A stretch of DNA of 64,000 nucleotides from Amedibacterium intestinale (lineage in GTDB: Bacteria > Bacillota_I > Bacilli_A > Erysipelotrichales > Erysipelotrichaceae), in NCBI RefSeq assembly GCF_010537335.1, contig NZ_AP019711.1:62001-126000 (forward strand), written 5' to 3'. The translations under genes were made by a program, and so were the position numbers. Numbering within the stretch: the stretch's first letter is position 1; each line of letters starts with the position of its first letter. Positions 16,513-60,204 of this stretch are shown piece by piece. The notes beneath the pieces are model-generated. The model saw only the letters and a list, made by a program, of their open reading frames with translations, ran no database searches and was not told where the DNA came from.

Positions 16513-16586
16513 GCCGGTATAGTATAGTGGTAATACAAAGCAATGGTAATGCTTAGCGCTCAGTTCAATTCTGGGTACCGGCACCA
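16513..16586 (+). tRNA. tRNA-Thr (anticodon GGT), CCA encoded
   Basis: Acceptor stem GCCGGTA/TACCGGC, D-arm GTAT-AGTGGTA-ATAC with a short loop, anticodon stem AAGCA/TGCTT with loop ATGGTAA (anticodon GGT), 4-base variable loop, T-arm CTCAG-TTCAATT-CTGGG, discriminator A and encoded CCA. G1-C72 and C2-G71 agree with threonine identity. Confidence 0.9.
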
Positions 16587-16596
16587 TGTACGTCTG

Positions 16597-16624
16597 AAGC
16601 CTTTCGTTAGGAAGGGCTTTTTTT
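16597..16624 (+). terminator. Intrinsic terminator after tRNA-Thr
   Basis: Stem AAGCCTTTC/GAAGGGCTT (one G-T pair) with loop GTTAG, followed by a T run. Confidence 0.9.
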
Positions 16625-16673
16625 GTAAAGTAAATACCATGCGTGTGGTAATAGAGCTTTTAGTGTAAAAAAA

Positions 16674-16960
16674 CCTCCTATGCAATATAATGAAATTGGC
16701 CGGGTAGCCAAAACGAAGGCATAGGAGGAATATGAAATGAATGACAAGAATAGTTTATCACACACATCATATAGGTGTAAATATCACATCATAATACTAT
16801 CAAAATATAGAAGAATGGTAATATATAACAAATTAAGAAAAGATATAGGACAGATATTGACGATGCTGATATTCTATTTCAAAAAATATATGATTATATT
16901 TTTTTGTTATTATTACATATTGTCGTGTAGGTTAACAATATAGTGGTAATGATTGAAGAA
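16674..16960 (+). mobile_element. Decayed IS200/IS605-type element (left end and 5' part of tnpA)
   Basis: An ATG at 16737 opens a frame starting MNDKNSLSHTSYRCKYHIII and then LSKYRRMVIYNKLRKDIG. This is the N-terminus of IS200-type Y1 transposases (usual form SLSHTKWNCKYHIVFAPKYRRQ). After about 40 residues similarity is lost and the frame ends; the HUH motif and catalytic Tyr are missing. Upstream is a typical left-end structure: a 10-bp inverted repeat CCTCCTATGC (16674-16683) / GCATAGGAGG (16719-16728) that would sequester the tnpA ribosome site, enclosing a small hairpin TTGGC-CGGGTA-GCCAA (16696-16711). No right end was found. Confidence 0.75.
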
Positions 16961-17063
16961 TCTGAAAAATATTACATGAAAAGTAAAATTAAAAGAATTA
17001 ATGGGAGATGCAAGAAAAACAATATTTAGCATATATGCGCATTGGTTGAAAGAAAAAGATTAA

Positions 17064-17162
17064 TACATATGTGAATTAAAATCTCTGCAAGAATTGTTGG
17101 ATATAGGAGTGATTACTGAAGAAACATTTTCCATGAAGAAAAAACAATTATCAGGAATATGA
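17064..17162 (+). pseudogene. SHOCT-domain C-terminal remnant
   Basis: An orphan stretch encodes CELKSLQELLDIGVITEETF and then SMKKKQLSGI before a TGA. This is a textbook SHOCT (short C-terminal) domain. A TAA stop lies immediately upstream in the same frame and no start codon or ribosome site is available. Just before it, 16938-17025 has another short open run (VVMIEESEKYYMKSKIKRI) that may be part of the same broken gene. Between here and the Abi gene at 17310 I see only AT-rich sequence. Confidence 0.6.
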
Positions 17163-17309
17163 AAGCTTAAAAATATTTATTTTTCAAAACATTAAATCAT
17201 CATTAACTATATGATATGTATTTAACTAAATATTAAATAAATTTTACCTTCTTTTATATTTTCGTATTAAAAATGGTTGTTGTATTTTAGTTATATAAGA
17301 AGATAAATA

Positions 17310-18266
17310 TTAGTCCTGAGGAAGTTTAGGGTAATCTTGCCAATCTTTTGGAAAACCTAAAGCATTTAAAATCAAATTATGATCGACAGTTTTAATCTTT
17401 TTTTTGAGTTGTACCATTCGGCTTCTTAAAGAATTGCTAGTTATCGCAAACTGATTTCTTGACATAAAAACTTGCATAACGATAAAAGTATTGTAGATAT
17501 TTTGTCGTGATGAATTAGGTAAAATTCCATAATTTGAATGTAATTCATTTATGTATAGTGTATTTTTTCTACAAGTATAGTCTAAAAATTTATTTCCATG
17601 TGCAACAATATTCCTGATTTCGCGAATATTATCTAGAAAAGATATTATATGTTTGTAAGTTAATTTGATATTTTGATACTCAATGTTTTCTGATAAAAAC
17701 CCAGAGAAGGTTTTTGCAATTTTATTTTTTTCGCTATCTTTCATATGTTTATAAAATGTTATTGTTTCTCCAAGAGTCATATAGTTTATAAGTACCCATA
17801 AAGGAACATTATTATGTTGGTTCATATAATGCTTAATAGAGTTTGGTGATTTCTCTTTCGCTTTTTTTGTTATTATTCTTGATAGTCCTGCAATAGTTTG
17901 TGTAACTTCAATAATATTATCATCTTTAAAGTTATTTGCAATTAAATATGAATAGTTTTCTCGATGATTTTCTGAAAAATAATAAGCTATCATAGACTTA
18001 AATTTTTTTTCAATCTCAAGAATTGCTTTAAAAAAGATTCCTTTTATTTCTTTGTCAAAATAATATATATGCGAAATTTCATCAAATGATGTACCATTTA
18101 TATAGTGATCATTAGAATCCATAAAAAATTTACTATAATAATTTATTACATTATAGTAATTATTACATAATAAATATTTTTTGGCTGTTTCTTCGTTACT
18201 AAATGTTAACCCCCTAGATTTTAGAATAGCTATTTGTTCATCAATAGTTTTGAATGGTTTAGTCAT
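17310..18266 (-). CDS. Abi_2 (AbiD/AbiF-like) HEPN-type abortive-infection protein, locus 1
   Basis: A 318-aa protein of the Abi_2 family (PF07751), the AbiD/AbiF phage-resistance type. It starts with TIDEQIAILKSRGLTF, has the YYFDKEIKGIFFKAILEIEKKFKS core, the conserved PLWVLINYMTLGETITFYKHM, and ends with IREIRNIVAHG. The RNIVAH segment is an Rx4H motif as in HEPN ribonucleases. Predicted function is RNA cleavage that arrests growth on phage infection (inference). AAGGAG lies 11-12 bases upstream of the ATG. Two tandem terminator-ended small-RNA units with a consensus promoter sit directly upstream on the same strand. The gene has no separate promoter that I can see, so its expression probably depends on readthrough of the RNA terminator. 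It is more AT-rich than neighbouring genes, consistent with transfer. Confidence 0.88.
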   Translation of the reverse strand: MTKPFKTIDEQIAILKSRGLTFSNEETAKKYLLCNNYYNVINYYSKFFMDSNDHYINGTSFDEISHIYYFDKEIKGIFFKAILEIEKKFKSMIAYYFSENHRENYSYLIANNFKDDNIIEVTQTIAGLSRIITKKAKEKSPNSIKHYMNQHNNVPLWVLINYMTLGETITFYKHMKDSEKNKIAKTFSGFLSENIEYQNIKLTYKHIISFLDNIREIRNIVAHGNKFLDYTCRKNTLYINELHSNYGILPNSSRQNIYNTFIVMQVFMSRNQFAITSNSLRSRMVQLKKKIKTVDHNLILNALGFPKDWQDYPKLPQD

Positions 18267-18282
18267 AATTTATAATACACTC

Positions 18283-18358
18283 CTTAAACAAAAAGCCTCT
18301 CAATAGTGAGAGGCTTCTGCGCAGATAGGTTCACATAGAATTCTCTATCGCTTATCGT
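18283..18358 (-). ncRNA. Small RNA unit A upstream of abi gene (candidate RNA antitoxin)
   Basis: On the minus strand a consensus promoter starts a roughly 75-nt RNA. It folds into a 5' hairpin ATAGA-GAAT-TCTAT, a linker containing CTATCTGCGCAG, and a strong terminator hairpin GCCTCTCA-CTAT-TGAGAGGC plus T5. The terminator ends just before the abi ribosome site. A 46-nt core is nearly identical to unit B 115 bases away. The layout (repeated RNA, terminator, toxin) resembles RNA-antitoxin systems. Structured RNAs beside AbiF-type genes have been reported, to my recollection; membership is inferred. Confidence 0.75.
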
Positions 18359-18364
18359 GTGAAT

Positions 18365-18393
18365 ATTATATTGCTTTTTTCAGTTGTTGTCAA
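18365..18393 (-). promoter_or_regulatory. Consensus sigma-A promoter for small RNA unit A
   Basis: On the minus strand: TTGACA, a 17-base spacer, then TATAAT. This is the best promoter in the window. Predicted start is near 18358. Confidence 0.88.
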
Positions 18394-18402
18394 TAGAAAA
18401 AA

Positions 18403-18480
18403 CAAAAACCTCTCACAATAATGAGAGGCTTCTGCGCAGATAGGTTCACATAGAATTCTCTACCGCTGCCTTTATTACTA
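18403..18480 (-). ncRNA. Small RNA unit B (tandem copy of unit A)
   Basis: The segment 18422-18467 repeats 18307-18352 with a single mismatch. It includes the 5' hairpin, the CTATCTGCGCAG linker and one arm of the terminator. Its terminator stem is CCTCTCA/TGAGAGG with a 6-base loop followed by a T-rich tail on the minus strand. A TATAGT -10-like box lies just upstream (about 18477-18482); the -35 is poor. Confidence 0.7.
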
Positions 18481-18483
18481 TAT

Positions 18484-18921
18484 GCACTAAACATAAAAAA
18501 ATACATGAAAAATATATTAAACATATAAAAATGTGGTTTGTTAAACTTTGATTTCTTTATTGATTATGGGTTTTCGTATTTAAAAAGAGGTTCTACAATC
18601 GTTAATTAATATTCTTGACTTGTTATTAGTTTGTATTATATCCTCGTTAACTTATTTATTATTTTGATAATTTCTTTTTCAGTTAGACATTATATAACTG
18701 AATCTCATTATTAGTTTCATTATCTCGATTAATTTTGAAACCTCTTTGTATTACAGATAAGAATTTTTACAATCTCTCTTTCTATATTCCATATTTTTGC
18801 TTTTATATATTTCATTAATGCCTACAAGATAATGCATTGTCTACATAAAATATAAGGAAACAGGATTAAGTGTTTAATGTCTTGGAAAGACTGTAAACTT
18901 AACCGGAAAGAGGAGATGTGT
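18484..18921. other. AT-rich stretch without recognisable genes
   Basis: Roughly 440 bases between the small-RNA pair and the holin gene. No convincing ORF, RNA or repeat was found. A longer frame upstream of the holin start (from 18877) lacks a ribosome site. Confidence 0.5.
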
Positions 18922-19143
18922 ATGAAAATAAAAAAGTATGCATTTAAATCCTGGCTAAAAGCAGCATCCATAAGGGCATTAAAAACAATGGCACAATCGG
19001 CAATCGGTATGATTGGGGCATCCACTATGATTCAAGATGTAAATTGGATTATGATTGTATCAAGTGTTGTATTAGCGGGGGTTTTATCGGTTTTAACTTC
19101 TATAGCTGGTTTACCTGAAGTTCCAGAGCTTACGGAAGAATAA
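18922..19143 (+). CDS. Phage holin, r1t-like
   Basis: A 73-aa protein with a charged N-terminus (MKIKKYAFKSWLKAASIRA) and two hydrophobic segments (KTMAQSAIGMIGAS and WIMIVSSVVLAGVLSVLTSI) ending in GLPEVPELTEE. The pattern matches the r1t-type holin family. Holins form membrane lesions that release endolysin at the end of a phage cycle. The start at 18922 has GAGGAG eight bases upstream; a longer frame from 18877 has none. It is 25 bases upstream of a GH25 endolysin, forming the standard phage lysis cassette, but no other phage gene is present in the window. Confidence 0.8.
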   Translation: MKIKKYAFKSWLKAASIRALKTMAQSAIGMIGASTMIQDVNWIMIVSSVVLAGVLSVLTSIAGLPEVPELTEE

Positions 19144-19168
19144 GAGACTATGAAAGGAGGAAAAATGT

Positions 19169-20188
19169 ATGACATTAAAATTTATTGATGTTGCCAGCTA
19201 TCAGGCTGGATTAGATTTATCAAAAATTCAAACGGATGGAGTTATGATAAAGGCTACCGAGGGAATAGGGTATGTAAATCCTTATTGTGATGAATTTTTT
19301 CAACAAGGCTTAAAGTTAGGGAAGCTGCTGGGGGTATATCATTTCGCAAGAAATGCCAGTGGAAATACGCCTCAAAAAGAAGCAGATTATTTTATTCAAC
19401 ATACAAAAGGATATATAGGAAAAGCGATTCCTGTATTGGATTGGGAAGATAAGAATACTGGTGAAGTTACATGGGCATTCCAGTGGCTGCAAATTGTGGA
19501 AAAAGCATATGGGTGCAAACCATGGATTTATATGAGTGAATATGTAGAGAATTCACATAACTGGAAGAAAGTGGCAGAAGCAGGTTATGGATTATGGATT
19601 GCGAAATATCGTGATAATGTAATTGATAAAAACTGGGATATGAAGAATGCAGGGCCAATTCCGACAGTGAAAGATTGGAAATTTTATGCGGCATGGCAGT
19701 GGACTTCTAGCCTTGTACTTGATGGTTGGAGTGGAAAACTTGATGGCAGCATCTTTTATGGGGATAAGAATGCATGGAGGAAATATATAAATAATGAAAT
19801 AAAACCACTTCCGCCAAAACCAAATAGTACAAAATATAAAACTGGTGATATTGTTAATATTAATGGAATTTATATTTCAAAAGAAAAATTAAAACCGGCT
19901 ATTACAAGTGGAACAATTACAAAGATTTATCCTGAAGCAAAGAATCAGTATTTAATTGGCAATGGTACAGGATTTGTAAATGATTCTTGTATTATAGGAA
20001 TTCATTCTTCAAAAGTATTAAAGGTAGGGATGAAGGCAAAACCTAAAAAAGCTGTATCATATGATGGGATCAACCTTGATTCATCTGTAACTAAGAAAAG
20101 CTATAAAGTAATTGAGATAAAAGGGAAGCGTGTTGTACTTGGAGATGGATTGAATACGGCTTTTCATATAGATAACTTATCATATTAA
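19169..20188 (+). CDS. GH25 lysozyme-type endolysin
   Basis: A 339-aa muramidase. Residues 1-205 are a GH25 domain with catalytic Asp in FIDVASYQ, GVMIKATEG, GVYHFARN, the catalytic LDWED pair, and the C-terminal AAWQWTSS...WSGKLDGSIFYGD block. It has no signal peptide, as expected for a holin-dependent phage enzyme. The C-terminal roughly 120 residues contain two similar beta-rich modules (YKTGDIVNINGIYIS..., LKVGMKAKPKKAVSYDGIN...), probably a cell-wall-binding domain of unrecognised family. AAAGGAGG is eight bases upstream. It probably is the remnant lysis module of a lost prophage. Confidence 0.9.
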   Translation: MTLKFIDVASYQAGLDLSKIQTDGVMIKATEGIGYVNPYCDEFFQQGLKLGKLLGVYHFARNASGNTPQKEADYFIQHTKGYIGKAIPVLDWEDKNTGEVTWAFQWLQIVEKAYGCKPWIYMSEYVENSHNWKKVAEAGYGLWIAKYRDNVIDKNWDMKNAGPIPTVKDWKFYAAWQWTSSLVLDGWSGKLDGSIFYGDKNAWRKYINNEIKPLPPKPNSTKYKTGDIVNINGIYISKEKLKPAITSGTITKIYPEAKNQYLIGNGTGFVNDSCIIGIHSSKVLKVGMKAKPKKAVSYDGINLDSSVTKKSYKVIEIKGKRVVLGDGLNTAFHIDNLSY

Positions 20189-23043: not shown

Positions 23044-24691
23044 CAGACTGTTGACAAAGGTGTCGACAGTCTATTTTTTATATGATAGAATAAAAGAGGC
23101 AAAAAGATTCCTATTTTACCCAAAAACATATGGTTCTTTTTGCCTTTTATAATGCTCAAAATGGTATAATAAAAGTGGGTAAAATAGGAGTGATTACATA
23201 TGGCAATGACAAGAAGAAACAACAAAAACGATAGTATTATATTAAATACAATAGAAGAATTAGTACCGCAGGATCATGATGTCAGAATGCTGGAAAGCTG
23301 TATCGACTGGAATTTTATCTACCCTCTTGTAGAAAATCTTTACAGTGATGTTGGAAGACCAAGCATAGATCCTGTGGTTCTTTTTAAAATGATCTTCATC
23401 AATATTATTTTCGGAATAGGTTCAATGAGAAAGACCTGCAGAGAAATACATGTAAACCTTGCGTATCGCTGGTTTCTGGGAATCTCCATGATGAAAGGGT
23501 GCCAAATTATTCTACCTGGAGTCAAAACTATATCCGAAGATACGGTGACAGTGAAGTGTTTGAAGAGATCTTTGATCAGATTCTAAAACAGGCAATCTCT
23601 TATGGCTTTGTAGATATGGAAACTGTATATGGAGACTCCACACACCAAAAGGCAAATGCGAATAAAAACAAGTATACAGATGAAGAAGTTGAAATCATGA
23701 AGAAAATATATGAAAACGATCTGCTGGATGAGATAAACAGGGATCGTGAGGAACATGGGAAGAAACCAATTAAAAAAAACGAAAAAGAAGAATTAAATTT
23801 TGATGAAGAAACGGGAAAATTGAAAAGGGACATACAAACAAAGCATATCAAAATTAGTAAAACAGATTCAGAGAGTGGCTGTTTCCATAAAGGTGAAAAA
23901 GAAAAATGTTTTGCTTATTCACATCAAACATTTTGCGATAGAAATGGATTTGTACTGGCAAGCGTATGTGTTGCGGGAAACGTACATGACAGCGTGTCTT
24001 TCTTTTCAGCGTATAAAGTATTAAACGATAAATATATGGATCAAATAAAAAATGTATGTCTGGATGCGGGATATATAACACCAGCAATATGTAAGATGAT
24101 ATTAGAAAATGGGCAAAAAATGTATGCGCCTTATAAAAGACCAATGACAAAGAAAGGATATTATAAGAAGTACGAGTATGTATATGATGAAGGATATGAC
24201 TGTTATCTGTGTCCAAATAATAAGGTGCTGTCATACAGCACGACAAACAAGCTTGGATATAAAGAATACAAATCAAATCCAAAGGATTGTGAGAACTGTC
24301 CTTTAAGAGGAAGATGTACATCATCAAAGAACTTTCAGAAAGTAGTGACACGTCATGTATGGGAGGAATACCGGGAGGAGGTAATGGATGAGATAAGACA
24401 TACACCGGAATGGAAAGAAATCTATCCAAGGCGTAAAGAAAGCATAGAGAGGGTGTTCGCAGACTGTAAAGAACATCACACGTTGAGATATACCAGGTTA
24501 AGAGGGCTACAAAAAAATCAGCATCAGTCGCTGATGATTTTTGCGTGTTATAATCTAAAAAGAATGTCCAGATGGAGATGGAAAAGCATCTCTAAAACTG
24601 TACAAAATCTAATAAAAAGCACAATTTTAAATTATTTTAAGAAAAAAGAAAAGCGATACTTGTTTATAAGTACCACTTTGTCAACAATCTG
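23044..24691 (+). mobile_element. IS1182-family insertion sequence, copy 2 (1648 bp, frameshifted)
   Basis: Same ends as copy 1, same orientation relative to the window, one base shorter because of a single-base deletion. It is flanked by a 19-bp palindromic target duplication. It is inserted in the 3' end of a pilin-like gene in the opposite orientation to the pilus operon. Sequence identity to copy 1 is patchy: near-perfect blocks alternate with blocks of dense synonymous differences. Confidence 0.92.
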
Positions 24692-24722
24692 GGAAATATT
24701 ATATATTTCTTTTTCTTTATAA
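23200..24722 (+). pseudogene. IS1182-family transposase, frameshifted copy
   Basis: It corresponds to the intact 497-aa transposase of copy 1. After GISM the frame is lost because one G is missing at 23490/23491 (copy 1 reads CCATGGATGAAAG, this copy CCATGATGAAAG). The remaining 75% is open in another frame with all catalytic motifs. There is no slippery heptamer at the site and copy 1 lacks the shift, so this is a mutation or a sequencing error rather than programmed frameshifting. The frame runs out of the element and stops in target DNA after ten extra residues. Confidence 0.9.
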
Positions 24723-25024
24723 TAAACATGAATTGCAAGGGATTGCTGCTTTTGATTTAAATGCACTTTATATGTACTTGAATCTTTTTCACATAAGTTT
24801 CCTTTTGTGTCAAAATAAAGCCAATCTTTCTCTATAGGACGATCATTTTTATACAGTTCTATTAAATTTCCTGCAATACTGGATGCTTCTTTTTTTCGTA
24901 TGCTTTCCTCATTTATCGTATCTGCTTTCACAAACAATTGTACACAAATAGCACTAGCTAGTGAGAAAAACAGAAAAGCTACAATAAGCTCCATTAAGAA
25001 AAGTCCACTTTTACTGTGCTTCAT
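24632..25024 (-). CDS. Prepilin-like protein with IS-altered C-terminus
   Basis: A 130-aa protein with a type IV prepilin-like N-terminus: MKHSKSG followed by LFLMELIVAFLFFSLASAI, which has the conserved Glu at +5 after a Gly that could be the prepilin peptidase site. It is a minor pilin candidate. The IS1182 insertion at 24691 replaces the original C-terminus. By joining the two target copies, the ancestral ending was NISYYHHQQKKL and then stop. The present protein instead reads 19 IS-derived residues. The gene overlaps the upstream DUF4860-like gene by 14 bases. Confidence 0.75.
   Translation of the reverse strand: MKHSKSGLFLMELIVAFLFFSLASAICVQLFVKADTINEESIRKKEASSIAGNLIELYKNDRPIEKDWLYFDTKGNLCEKDSSTYKVHLNQKQQSLAIHVYYKEKEIYNISQIVDKVVLINKYRFSFFLK
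24692..24710. repeat. Right 19-bp target duplication of IS1182 copy 2 (palindromic)
   Basis: Identical to 23025-23043; the duplication includes codons of the interrupted pilin-like gene. Confidence 0.88.
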
Positions 25025-35775: not shown

Positions 35776-35787
35776 CCTAACGACAAT

Positions 35788-35875
35788 TAAATTAGCAAAC
35801 CTGTTGAAAAGCAGAGTACGCAAAGCTAAAGGGCCTTCATCCAATTCATGGGATATGGCAGCCAGTTGCACCAAG
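35788..35875 (+). ncRNA. Cyclic di-GMP-I riboswitch (GEMM-I aptamer)
   Basis: The conserved GEMM-I elements occur in order: AGCAAACC, a P1b stem CTG-TTGAAAAG-CAG with the GAAA tetraloop, TACGCAAAGC, GGGCC, then a variable stem-loop and ATGGCAGCCAGTTGC. The aptamer lies between a strong promoter and an intrinsic terminator, 75 bases before the M60 peptidase gene, so control is probably by transcription termination. The direction (on or off) cannot be decided by eye. Confidence 0.92.
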
Positions 35876-59196: not shown

Positions 59197-60204
59197 ATGA
59201 AAAAAACATATAAATCTGTTGATGAACAAATTGAATACTTAAAAGATAATAAAAAGATAATTGTAAAAAATGAACATAAACAGATTTTTGAAGAGAGAAG
59301 TTATTCTTCATTAATTAATCCTTATAAGGAGTTCTTTTCTAATGGTAGAGACGAGAAAGGGAATCATATTTATATAAATGAAATTGATTTTGAAGAGATT
59401 CTTAAAATTGTGAAAGTGGATGACAACTTTTGTACTGCTATGTATTCCTATATTGGTTCTTTTGAAAAGAAGTTTAAAACAGTTTTGTTTTCAGAAATCT
59501 GCAGCAAATATGTTAATAGTGAGAATGAAGATAAATATTGTACCTCTTATATAGAAGAAATTGATCGTTTTTTGGAAAGTGGTAATTTTGATGATTTGCC
59601 TAGATTTTGTGCGAATTATCCCTTCATTTTAACCAAGAATGGATATGTAGAAGATCAATATAATCTTGATTGTAAAAAAGATTTGTTAATTCATTTGAAA
59701 GAGATTGGAACAGGTATTTCTCGTGATGGAGGTACAATTGAAAAGTCAAATCAATTGATTAGCCATTATTTGAAAACTCAAGTAATTGCACCTCTGTGGG
59801 TATTACCAAATTCTTTAACTTTGGGAGAACTTAAAATCTTATTTTCAATGTTAGATAGTAATTCTCAAAAGAAAATTATTTCAAAGTTTTATGATATTGA
59901 AGACTATGGAAAGATTTCGCTAGCAAAGATTTTGAATTTTTCTGGAGCACTTGAAATTATTCGCCGTATTCGTAATGTAGTAAATCACTATGAACCAATA
60001 TTTCCGTTGCTTGTATCTGAACTAAAACCAATGAAGAAAGTTAAAGAATCACAAATTTATGCAGTGTTTAAATTGTTATCCAATACTTTTGCATCTTCTT
60101 CATTTAATCATGTTACCTATGTTGATTTAAAATTAAAAGTAAATGATTTCAACTTGAAATACATTAAGATTTTTGAAGTAATGCAAGAATTTACACAGAA
60201 ATAA
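59197..60204 (+). CDS. Abi_2 (AbiD/AbiF-like) HEPN-type abortive-infection protein, locus 2
   Basis: A 335-aa Abi_2 family protein sharing the layout of the gene at 17310-18266: start KSVDEQIEYLKDNKKI, core MYSYIGSFEKKFKTVLFSEI, PLWVLPNSLTLGELKILFSM and C-terminal IIRRIRNVVNHYEP. RNVVNH is the Rx4H HEPN motif. Identity to the first copy appears low beyond these motifs, so they are not a recent duplication. AGGTGA precedes the ATG and a -10 box lies directly upstream. An IS110 remnant is on one side and a convergent small RNA at the 3' end. Confidence 0.87.
   Translation: MKKTYKSVDEQIEYLKDNKKIIVKNEHKQIFEERSYSSLINPYKEFFSNGRDEKGNHIYINEIDFEEILKIVKVDDNFCTAMYSYIGSFEKKFKTVLFSEICSKYVNSENEDKYCTSYIEEIDRFLESGNFDDLPRFCANYPFILTKNGYVEDQYNLDCKKDLLIHLKEIGTGISRDGGTIEKSNQLISHYLKTQVIAPLWVLPNSLTLGELKILFSMLDSNSQKKIISKFYDIEDYGKISLAKILNFSGALEIIRRIRNVVNHYEPIFPLLVSELKPMKKVKESQIYAVFKLLSNTFASSSFNHVTYVDLKLKVNDFNLKYIKIFEVMQEFTQK

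Follow-up and report, generated by a model that had tools for sequence, protein, structure and literature searches.

The closest described relatives of the locus examined here are RNA-antitoxin systems built around AbiF proteins. In AbiF_Cd/RCd22 (C. difficile phi027), a SigA promoter, an RNA, a Rho-independent terminator, a ribosome-binding site and the toxin gene follow one another and the toxin is expressed by readthrough; the HEPN RNase is toxic, which requires R202 and H207, the RNA binds it directly and neutralises it in cis and in trans, and deletion of RCd22 raises toxin mRNA 17-fold (PMC12373285). PbAbiF, whose activity needs R210 and H215 (PMC12373285), is a dimer with one non-coding RNA (ncRNA) bound per monomer, and AbiF has been reported as the ancestor of Cas13 (PMC12737573). 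In lactococcal abiD1 (pIL105), a 50-nt RNA ends at a terminator just before the gene (PMC2661086). Here we analyse an Abi_2 gene preceded by two tandem RNA units in Amedibacterium intestinale (contig NZ_AP019711.1, positions 62,001 to 126,000, forward strand; this whole stretch of 64,000 nt is the window, and coordinates count from its first nucleotide). With a probability of about 0.8, we read this locus as an AbiD/AbiF-group RNA-antitoxin system with autonomous tandem antitoxin genes.

The toxin gene (17310-18266, minus strand, like all parts of the locus) is intact and encodes a 318-aa Abi_2 protein of the AbiD/AbiF group, which matches Pfam Abi_2 (E = 7e-39, 134 bits against a gathering score of 25.6), PADLOC AbiD (E = 2.7e-57, 193 bits) and a PHROG described as abortive infection protein (5e-79). 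A phmmer alignment with PbAbiF (8vz6) extends over the whole length (E = 1.2e-13) and places R218 and H223 of the HEPN motif R218-N-I-V-A-H223 opposite R210 and H215; among 33 relatives R218 and N219 are invariant and H223 is kept in at least 90%. For an AlphaFold (AF2) model built from 33 sequences, with a predicted local distance difference test (pLDDT) score of 95, Foldseek returned the PbAbiF dimer with its ncRNA as the sole significant PDB match (E = 2.7e-11, template-modelling (TM) score 0.74-0.79); EsCas13d came second and was not significant. By analogy with its characterised relatives, the protein is probably a HEPN ribonuclease toxin, as a first-pass annotation made from the sequence alone had proposed on its RNIVAH motif; the link between AbiF-type RNases and Cas13 that it named agrees with the 8vz6 fold match and the published ancestry (PMC12737573). 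A type III toxin-antitoxin system of the ToxIN group was considered and ruled out, as the fold matches PbAbiF only and not ToxN. A second, distant Abi_2 gene (28% identical) lies within the window at 59197-60204 (+), its ribosome site immediately preceded by a TATAAT-like box.

Directly upstream of the toxin gene, a 46-nt block occurs twice (18307-18352 and 18422-18467) with a single mismatch, A/G at the fifth position, as seen directly in the sequence. The extended repeat is 63 nt long with 90% identity and a spacing of 115 nt, and a chance origin of such a duplication is negligible. In the direction of transcription, the locus begins with the putative -10 box of unit 1 (TATAGT, 18477-18482), placed by alignment and lacking a TTGACA -35, followed by the unit 1 hairpin (18434-18467) and its intrinsic terminator (18396-18435, with 15 pairs at 18402-18435). 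Unit 2 has its own promoter P2, a perfect TTGACA-17-TATAAT (18365-18393), then the second antitoxin-type hairpin (18319-18352) and an intrinsic terminator (18289-18316) that is evident from the sequence and folds together with the rest of the unit. Both units fold better than shuffled sequences (z = -4.4, 0/200 shuffles as good). The only element that separates the second terminator from the ATG is an AAGGAG ribosome-binding site (18280-18285), which leaves the toxin gene without a promoter of its own. The locus has the AbiF RNA-antitoxin (type III-like) layout of an upstream structured and conserved RNA, a terminator before the toxin, and a toxin gene without its own promoter. The near-perfect repeat, the perfect promoter of the nearer copy, the strong terminators after both copies and the lone ribosome site had all been picked out by the first-pass annotation and were borne out here; the RNA-antitoxin layout with readthrough expression that it drew from them gains support from the same part order in AbiF_Cd/RCd22 (PMC12373285).

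The plan of each unit is A-GC-GAUAG-AGAA-UUC(UAUGU)GAA-C-CUAUC-U-GC-GC followed by the terminator, which gives a hairpin with a 7-bp outer stem containing a bulged U, a 5' bulge, a 3-bp inner stem and a UAUGU pentaloop. Of the hairpin-linker-terminator anatomy proposed earlier, the hairpin and terminator stand and the linker falls, as most of CTATCTGCGCAG forms the hairpin's 3' arm, in which CUAUC-U-GC pairs with GC-GAUAG. The suggested check against the Rfam abiF covariance model came out negative: RF03085 gave no match at E<=10 in 18200-18560, none at the gathering score across the window and none in the organism's own genome. The predicted antitoxin RNA therefore belongs to a family other than Rfam abiF, one that is absent from Rfam 15 and new. 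Low-scoring Rfam matches in the region (rnk leader, STnc230 and others) were terminator look-alikes below the gathering score and were discarded.

Homologous loci were collected from genome contigs with an alignment query, a single-protein query having given 0 matches. As anticipated, the pattern is conserved: the same hairpin architecture stands upstream of Abi_2 homologues in many Bacillota, including Streptococcus and its satellite phages, Enterococcus, Lactobacillaceae, Selenomonas, Acidaminococcus and Erysipelotrichaceae. It takes two forms, a short one (roughly AGYGNNNGNANCUCUACGGGGNCNNNYGCGG) whose loop is of the UACG type, and the long one found in the window. The covariation called for at the outset was found as well. 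In 17 short units, 99.4% of the cells were paired and 20 showed double changes; with the pairing partner slid, the figures were 33-47% and 0-4. Because these units had been selected by a structural descriptor, the pairing test was repeated on 29 units selected by inner-hairpin sequence alone; their outer stem was 88% paired against 30-56% when slid, with 34 double changes, where 1000 arm swaps gave 12 on average and never more than 23. Since this second test beats both the slid and the arm-swap controls, the outer stem is real. Covariance model R2, whose E-values, like those of R1 and R3, are rough, recognised unit 1 with 57.2 bits (E = 3e-12) and unit 2 with 59.4 bits (E = 8e-13; the model contains this sequence). 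Model R1, built on the short-loop type, scored the window units at 3.7 bits and did not recognise them, so that R2 was needed and the short and long types form one architecture by inspection, not one covariance model. Upstream of more distant Abi_2 genes there is either no visible hairpin or a different one that resembles this plan and also serves as a terminator (type B, model R3). Two covariance matches (L168, L169) and four pattern matches (L196, L200, L214, L216) were set aside as likely chance.

Several points weigh against reading the locus as an RNA-antitoxin system of this group. The window RNA departs from the RF03085 consensus in its bulge and loop plan and is a different motif from Rfam abiF, and transfer of the mechanism therefore rests on the protein and the layout. 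No hairpin-terminator unit was seen within 300 nt upstream of the second Abi_2 gene at 59197-60204, nor was such an RNA seen upstream of some other distant Abi_2 genes, so not every member of the family needs one. In AT-rich DNA, the call of a -10-only promoter for unit 1 is also weak, and a promoter search of the locus returned no 12-mer promoter match for this unit.

Covariance searches of 311 genomes of the order also found the RNA without a toxin gene and with its own terminator, and its presence away from any toxin gene fits a trans-acting RNA. Around 12 solo copies, a hidden Markov model (HMM) of 128 Abi_2 proteins found no Abi_2 in approximately 10 kb on each side or to the contig end; four of these copies have a phage-type integrase gene as immediate neighbour, and three precede terminase genes. 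When IMG/VR was scanned with a sequence pattern, 39 contigs had short-type and 4 had long-type units. Of 25 distinct short-type viral units, 15 form all four of the stem pairs not fixed by the pattern; with the arms swapped, the number averages 3 and does not exceed 9. Among 37 viral records with the RNA, an Abi_2 gene is present in only 8 and absent from 29, counts that include records that may be fragments and a few pattern matches that are likely chance. Streptococcus phage Sfi19 carries a solo RNA between its endolysin and orf111-AcrIIA6 genes (record 24506-24536, 42 bits), preceded by TGTTATAAT and with a T-run thereafter, and its complete genome has no Abi_2. L181 and the viral contig L242 each have a single RNA in which a type-A and a type-B hairpin are joined (R3 E 2.3e-5).

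By analogy with known phage RNA mimics of host defence RNAs, these solo copies fit phage-borne mimics that would act as decoy antitoxins and disarm AbiF-type toxins. We give even odds to the wider proposal that Bacillota phages and prophages carry solitary AbiD/F hairpins as RNA inhibitors and that some hosts responded by changing or multiplying their antitoxin genes. That the solo phage and chromosomal copies are instead remnants left after loss of the toxin gene is doubtful, though a real possibility. Broken toxin genes with one remaining unit do exist (L006, L138, L152, L158), and some solo copies are chromosomal with no phage genes nearby (L179, L182-L184, L188), one of which, L182, differs from window unit 1 at 2 of 34 positions. 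Loss of the toxin gene accords less well with the lack of any Abi_2 trace by HMM in the 12 regions, with the perfect compensated stems kept in many viral units, with positions typical of accessory genes (integrase, terminase, endolysin/AcrIIA6), or with the two different antitoxin-type hairpins in one RNA of L181/L242. No description of solo phage copies for AbiF/AbiD was found in the literature searched, in which subscription papers were only partly searchable, and the solo phage copies of this RNA are new.

Several of these solo copies have noteworthy surroundings. After the solo RNA of Sfi19 (L239 2680-3090, record ~24469-24879), at least two further extended -10 boxes (TGTTATAAT, TGGTATAAT), each followed by a hairpin and a T-run, lie in the gap before orf111-AcrIIA6 and may represent several small RNA genes strung together within an anti-defence locus. 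In L181 (9970-10180) and L242 (10619-10860, minus strand) there are more hairpins upstream, with repeated GUUGG(C/U)AG loops. Solo RNAs also stand among or beside an array of tRNA-like fragments, T-arm-like stem-loops (GGTTCGAATCC, GTTCGATTCGTG and others), in the S. agalactiae prophage Javan5 (L241 2800-3240) and in L195, L199, L204 and L223; these stem-loops are mostly not complete tRNAs for ARAGORN, and in several cases they lie upstream of terminase genes. Two hairpins sharing the loop UAUUGGCGUA or a close variant flank the antitoxin-like hairpin in L178 (6660-6800), L189 (14450-14579) and L222 (120-240), and the solo RNAs of L178 and L189 adjoin integrases. The solo RNA of L182 (6900-10034) is approximately 1 kb from two genes that by eye resemble an AAA15/RloB-type defence pair. 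Lactococcus phage sk1, a region of which is reported to protect against AbiF, gave no match in a comparison with models R1 and R2.

Most Abi_2 loci with the RNA have a single unit. At least two units occur in a cluster of Erysipelotrichales toxins, among them seven relatives with 47-54% protein identity (L005, L035, L036, L037, L038, L039 and L080); L080 (1-300) has at least three near-identical 117-bp promoter-RNA-terminator units, its contig ending inside the array. L118 has two units approximately 310 nt apart. On the toxin tree the two-unit loci cluster with 2 changes, a count as low as this arising in 0 of 500 shuffles, with L118 scored as one-unit. In an alignment of seven two-unit loci (the window, L005 and L035-L039), the toxin-proximal unit has TTGACA and a -10 box in all seven, and the first unit has a TATAAT-like box at the equivalent place without a -35. 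Single-unit loci elsewhere have the TTGACA-type unit, and the downstream unit is thus probably ancestral. Together these loci form a natural gradation in antitoxin gene number, from one through two to three or more, before otherwise similar toxins.

It is unlikely that the tandem copy is a recent neutral duplication devoid of function. The window copies are 90% identical, terminators included, and near-identity is also seen between the copies of L037 and of L080, so that new copies must form, or existing ones become homogenised, with ease. Against this, at least two units are present in 8 of 8 intact toxins of the nearest group (47-54% identity, window included), two loci with broken toxin genes (L006/L078 of Breznakia and L138 of Stoquefichus) have one unit left, and unit 1 and unit 2 differ in the -35 consistently across genera.

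If the mechanism known from AbiF_Cd and PbAbiF also applies to this protein and its different RNA, each upstream unit would yield a small RNA of approximately 70 nt, whose 34-nt hairpin would bind and inhibit the toxin in trans, and the unit's terminator would in cis keep most polymerases from the toxin gene. Toxin mRNA would come from occasional readthrough, and on this proposal the antitoxin would therefore always be in excess. The downstream unit, with its strong SigA promoter, would be the ancestral, constitutive antitoxin gene, and the upstream unit an additional copy, driven by a -10-only promoter, that probably raises the dose or supplies antitoxin under particular conditions. The second unit may provide dose, a second terminator against readthrough from upstream, or a differently regulated, -10-only source of antitoxin.

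Quite improbably, the units could be cis attenuators only, which sense a signal (a phage factor, cold or ribosome stalling) and set readthrough without acting in trans. A strong terminator in each unit does directly precede the toxin, and a cis effect, or control in cis through termination and translation, has been described for RCd22 and lactococcal abiD1 as well (PMC12373285, PMC2661086). The unpaired core is nonetheless conserved while the terminator stems vary, phages carry the hairpin alone, where there is no toxin gene for it to attenuate, the RNAs of AbiF_Cd and PbAbiF act in trans, and unit 1 cannot attenuate transcripts that start at unit 2, because the latter has its own strong promoter. 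That the RNAs are guides of an RNA-guided nuclease en route to Cas13, as the reported ancestry (PMC12737573) and the non-significant second place of EsCas13d might suggest, is very improbable, given that there is no variable spacer, that variation between loci consists of stem compensation, loop size and terminator, and that PbAbiF is described as a toxin-antitoxin system.

In the surroundings of the locus (16513-20188) we found a tRNA gene, an IS200-type transposase fragment (16737-16943), the Abi locus, a divergent holin and a GH25-type endolysin. The locus adjoins a prophage lysis module, a setting reported for other Abi_2 genes. Elsewhere in the window, a c-di-GMP-I riboswitch lies at 35784-35873 (+) (Rfam RF01051, 55 bits).

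Compared with known systems, the kind of system, an AbiF RNA-antitoxin pair, is already published. The locus is like AbiF_Cd/RCd22 in its order of parts and in its Abi_2/AbiD/F HEPN toxin gene without a promoter of its own. Tandem duplication of the RNA, singled out earlier as the unusual part, is not new as such, since RCd22 has two Rfam abiF motifs in one transcript (PMC12373285); here, however, every motif has a terminator-ended unit to itself and the RNA is of a family other than RF03085, and it is this multiplication of antitoxin genes as complete, separate, terminator-ended units that is new. PbAbiF/AbiFr (8vz6; Zilberzwige-Tal et al., via PMC12737573, PMC12373285) shares the full-length fold and the HEPN-motif correspondence R210/H215 = R218/H223, but with approximately 21% protein identity, a different RNA architecture and an RNA gene that is single in the sources read. 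Lactococcal AbiD1 likewise has a promoter, a short RNA with a terminator right before the gene and weak readthrough, but was published as translationally activated by phage Orf1, and an RNA antitoxin was not proposed there (PMC2661086). The type III systems ToxIN, CptIN and TenpIN also have RNA antitoxin repeats and a terminator between antitoxin and toxin, but theirs is the ToxN fold and not HEPN, and the repeats lie in one transcript, which in ToxIN is cut by the toxin.

The models for the solo copies are pseudo-ToxI of phage PhiTE (PMC3475682) and the Racr RNA anti-CRISPRs (PMC10651486), phage RNA mimics of a host defence RNA that, unlike the solo copies, target ToxN and Cas proteins; a mimic against AbiF/AbiD was not found in the literature searched. 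If the decoy proposal is true, the solo copies would form a class of RNA counter-defence parallel to pseudo-ToxI and the Racrs and aimed at the Cas13 ancestor group, and they point to a well-studied laboratory phage, S. thermophilus Sfi19, for direct counter-defence tests. The locus supplies an antitoxin RNA family with a clear consensus that is not in Rfam, and diversification of such antitoxin RNAs would be a step between a toxin-antitoxin pair and an RNA-guided enzyme.
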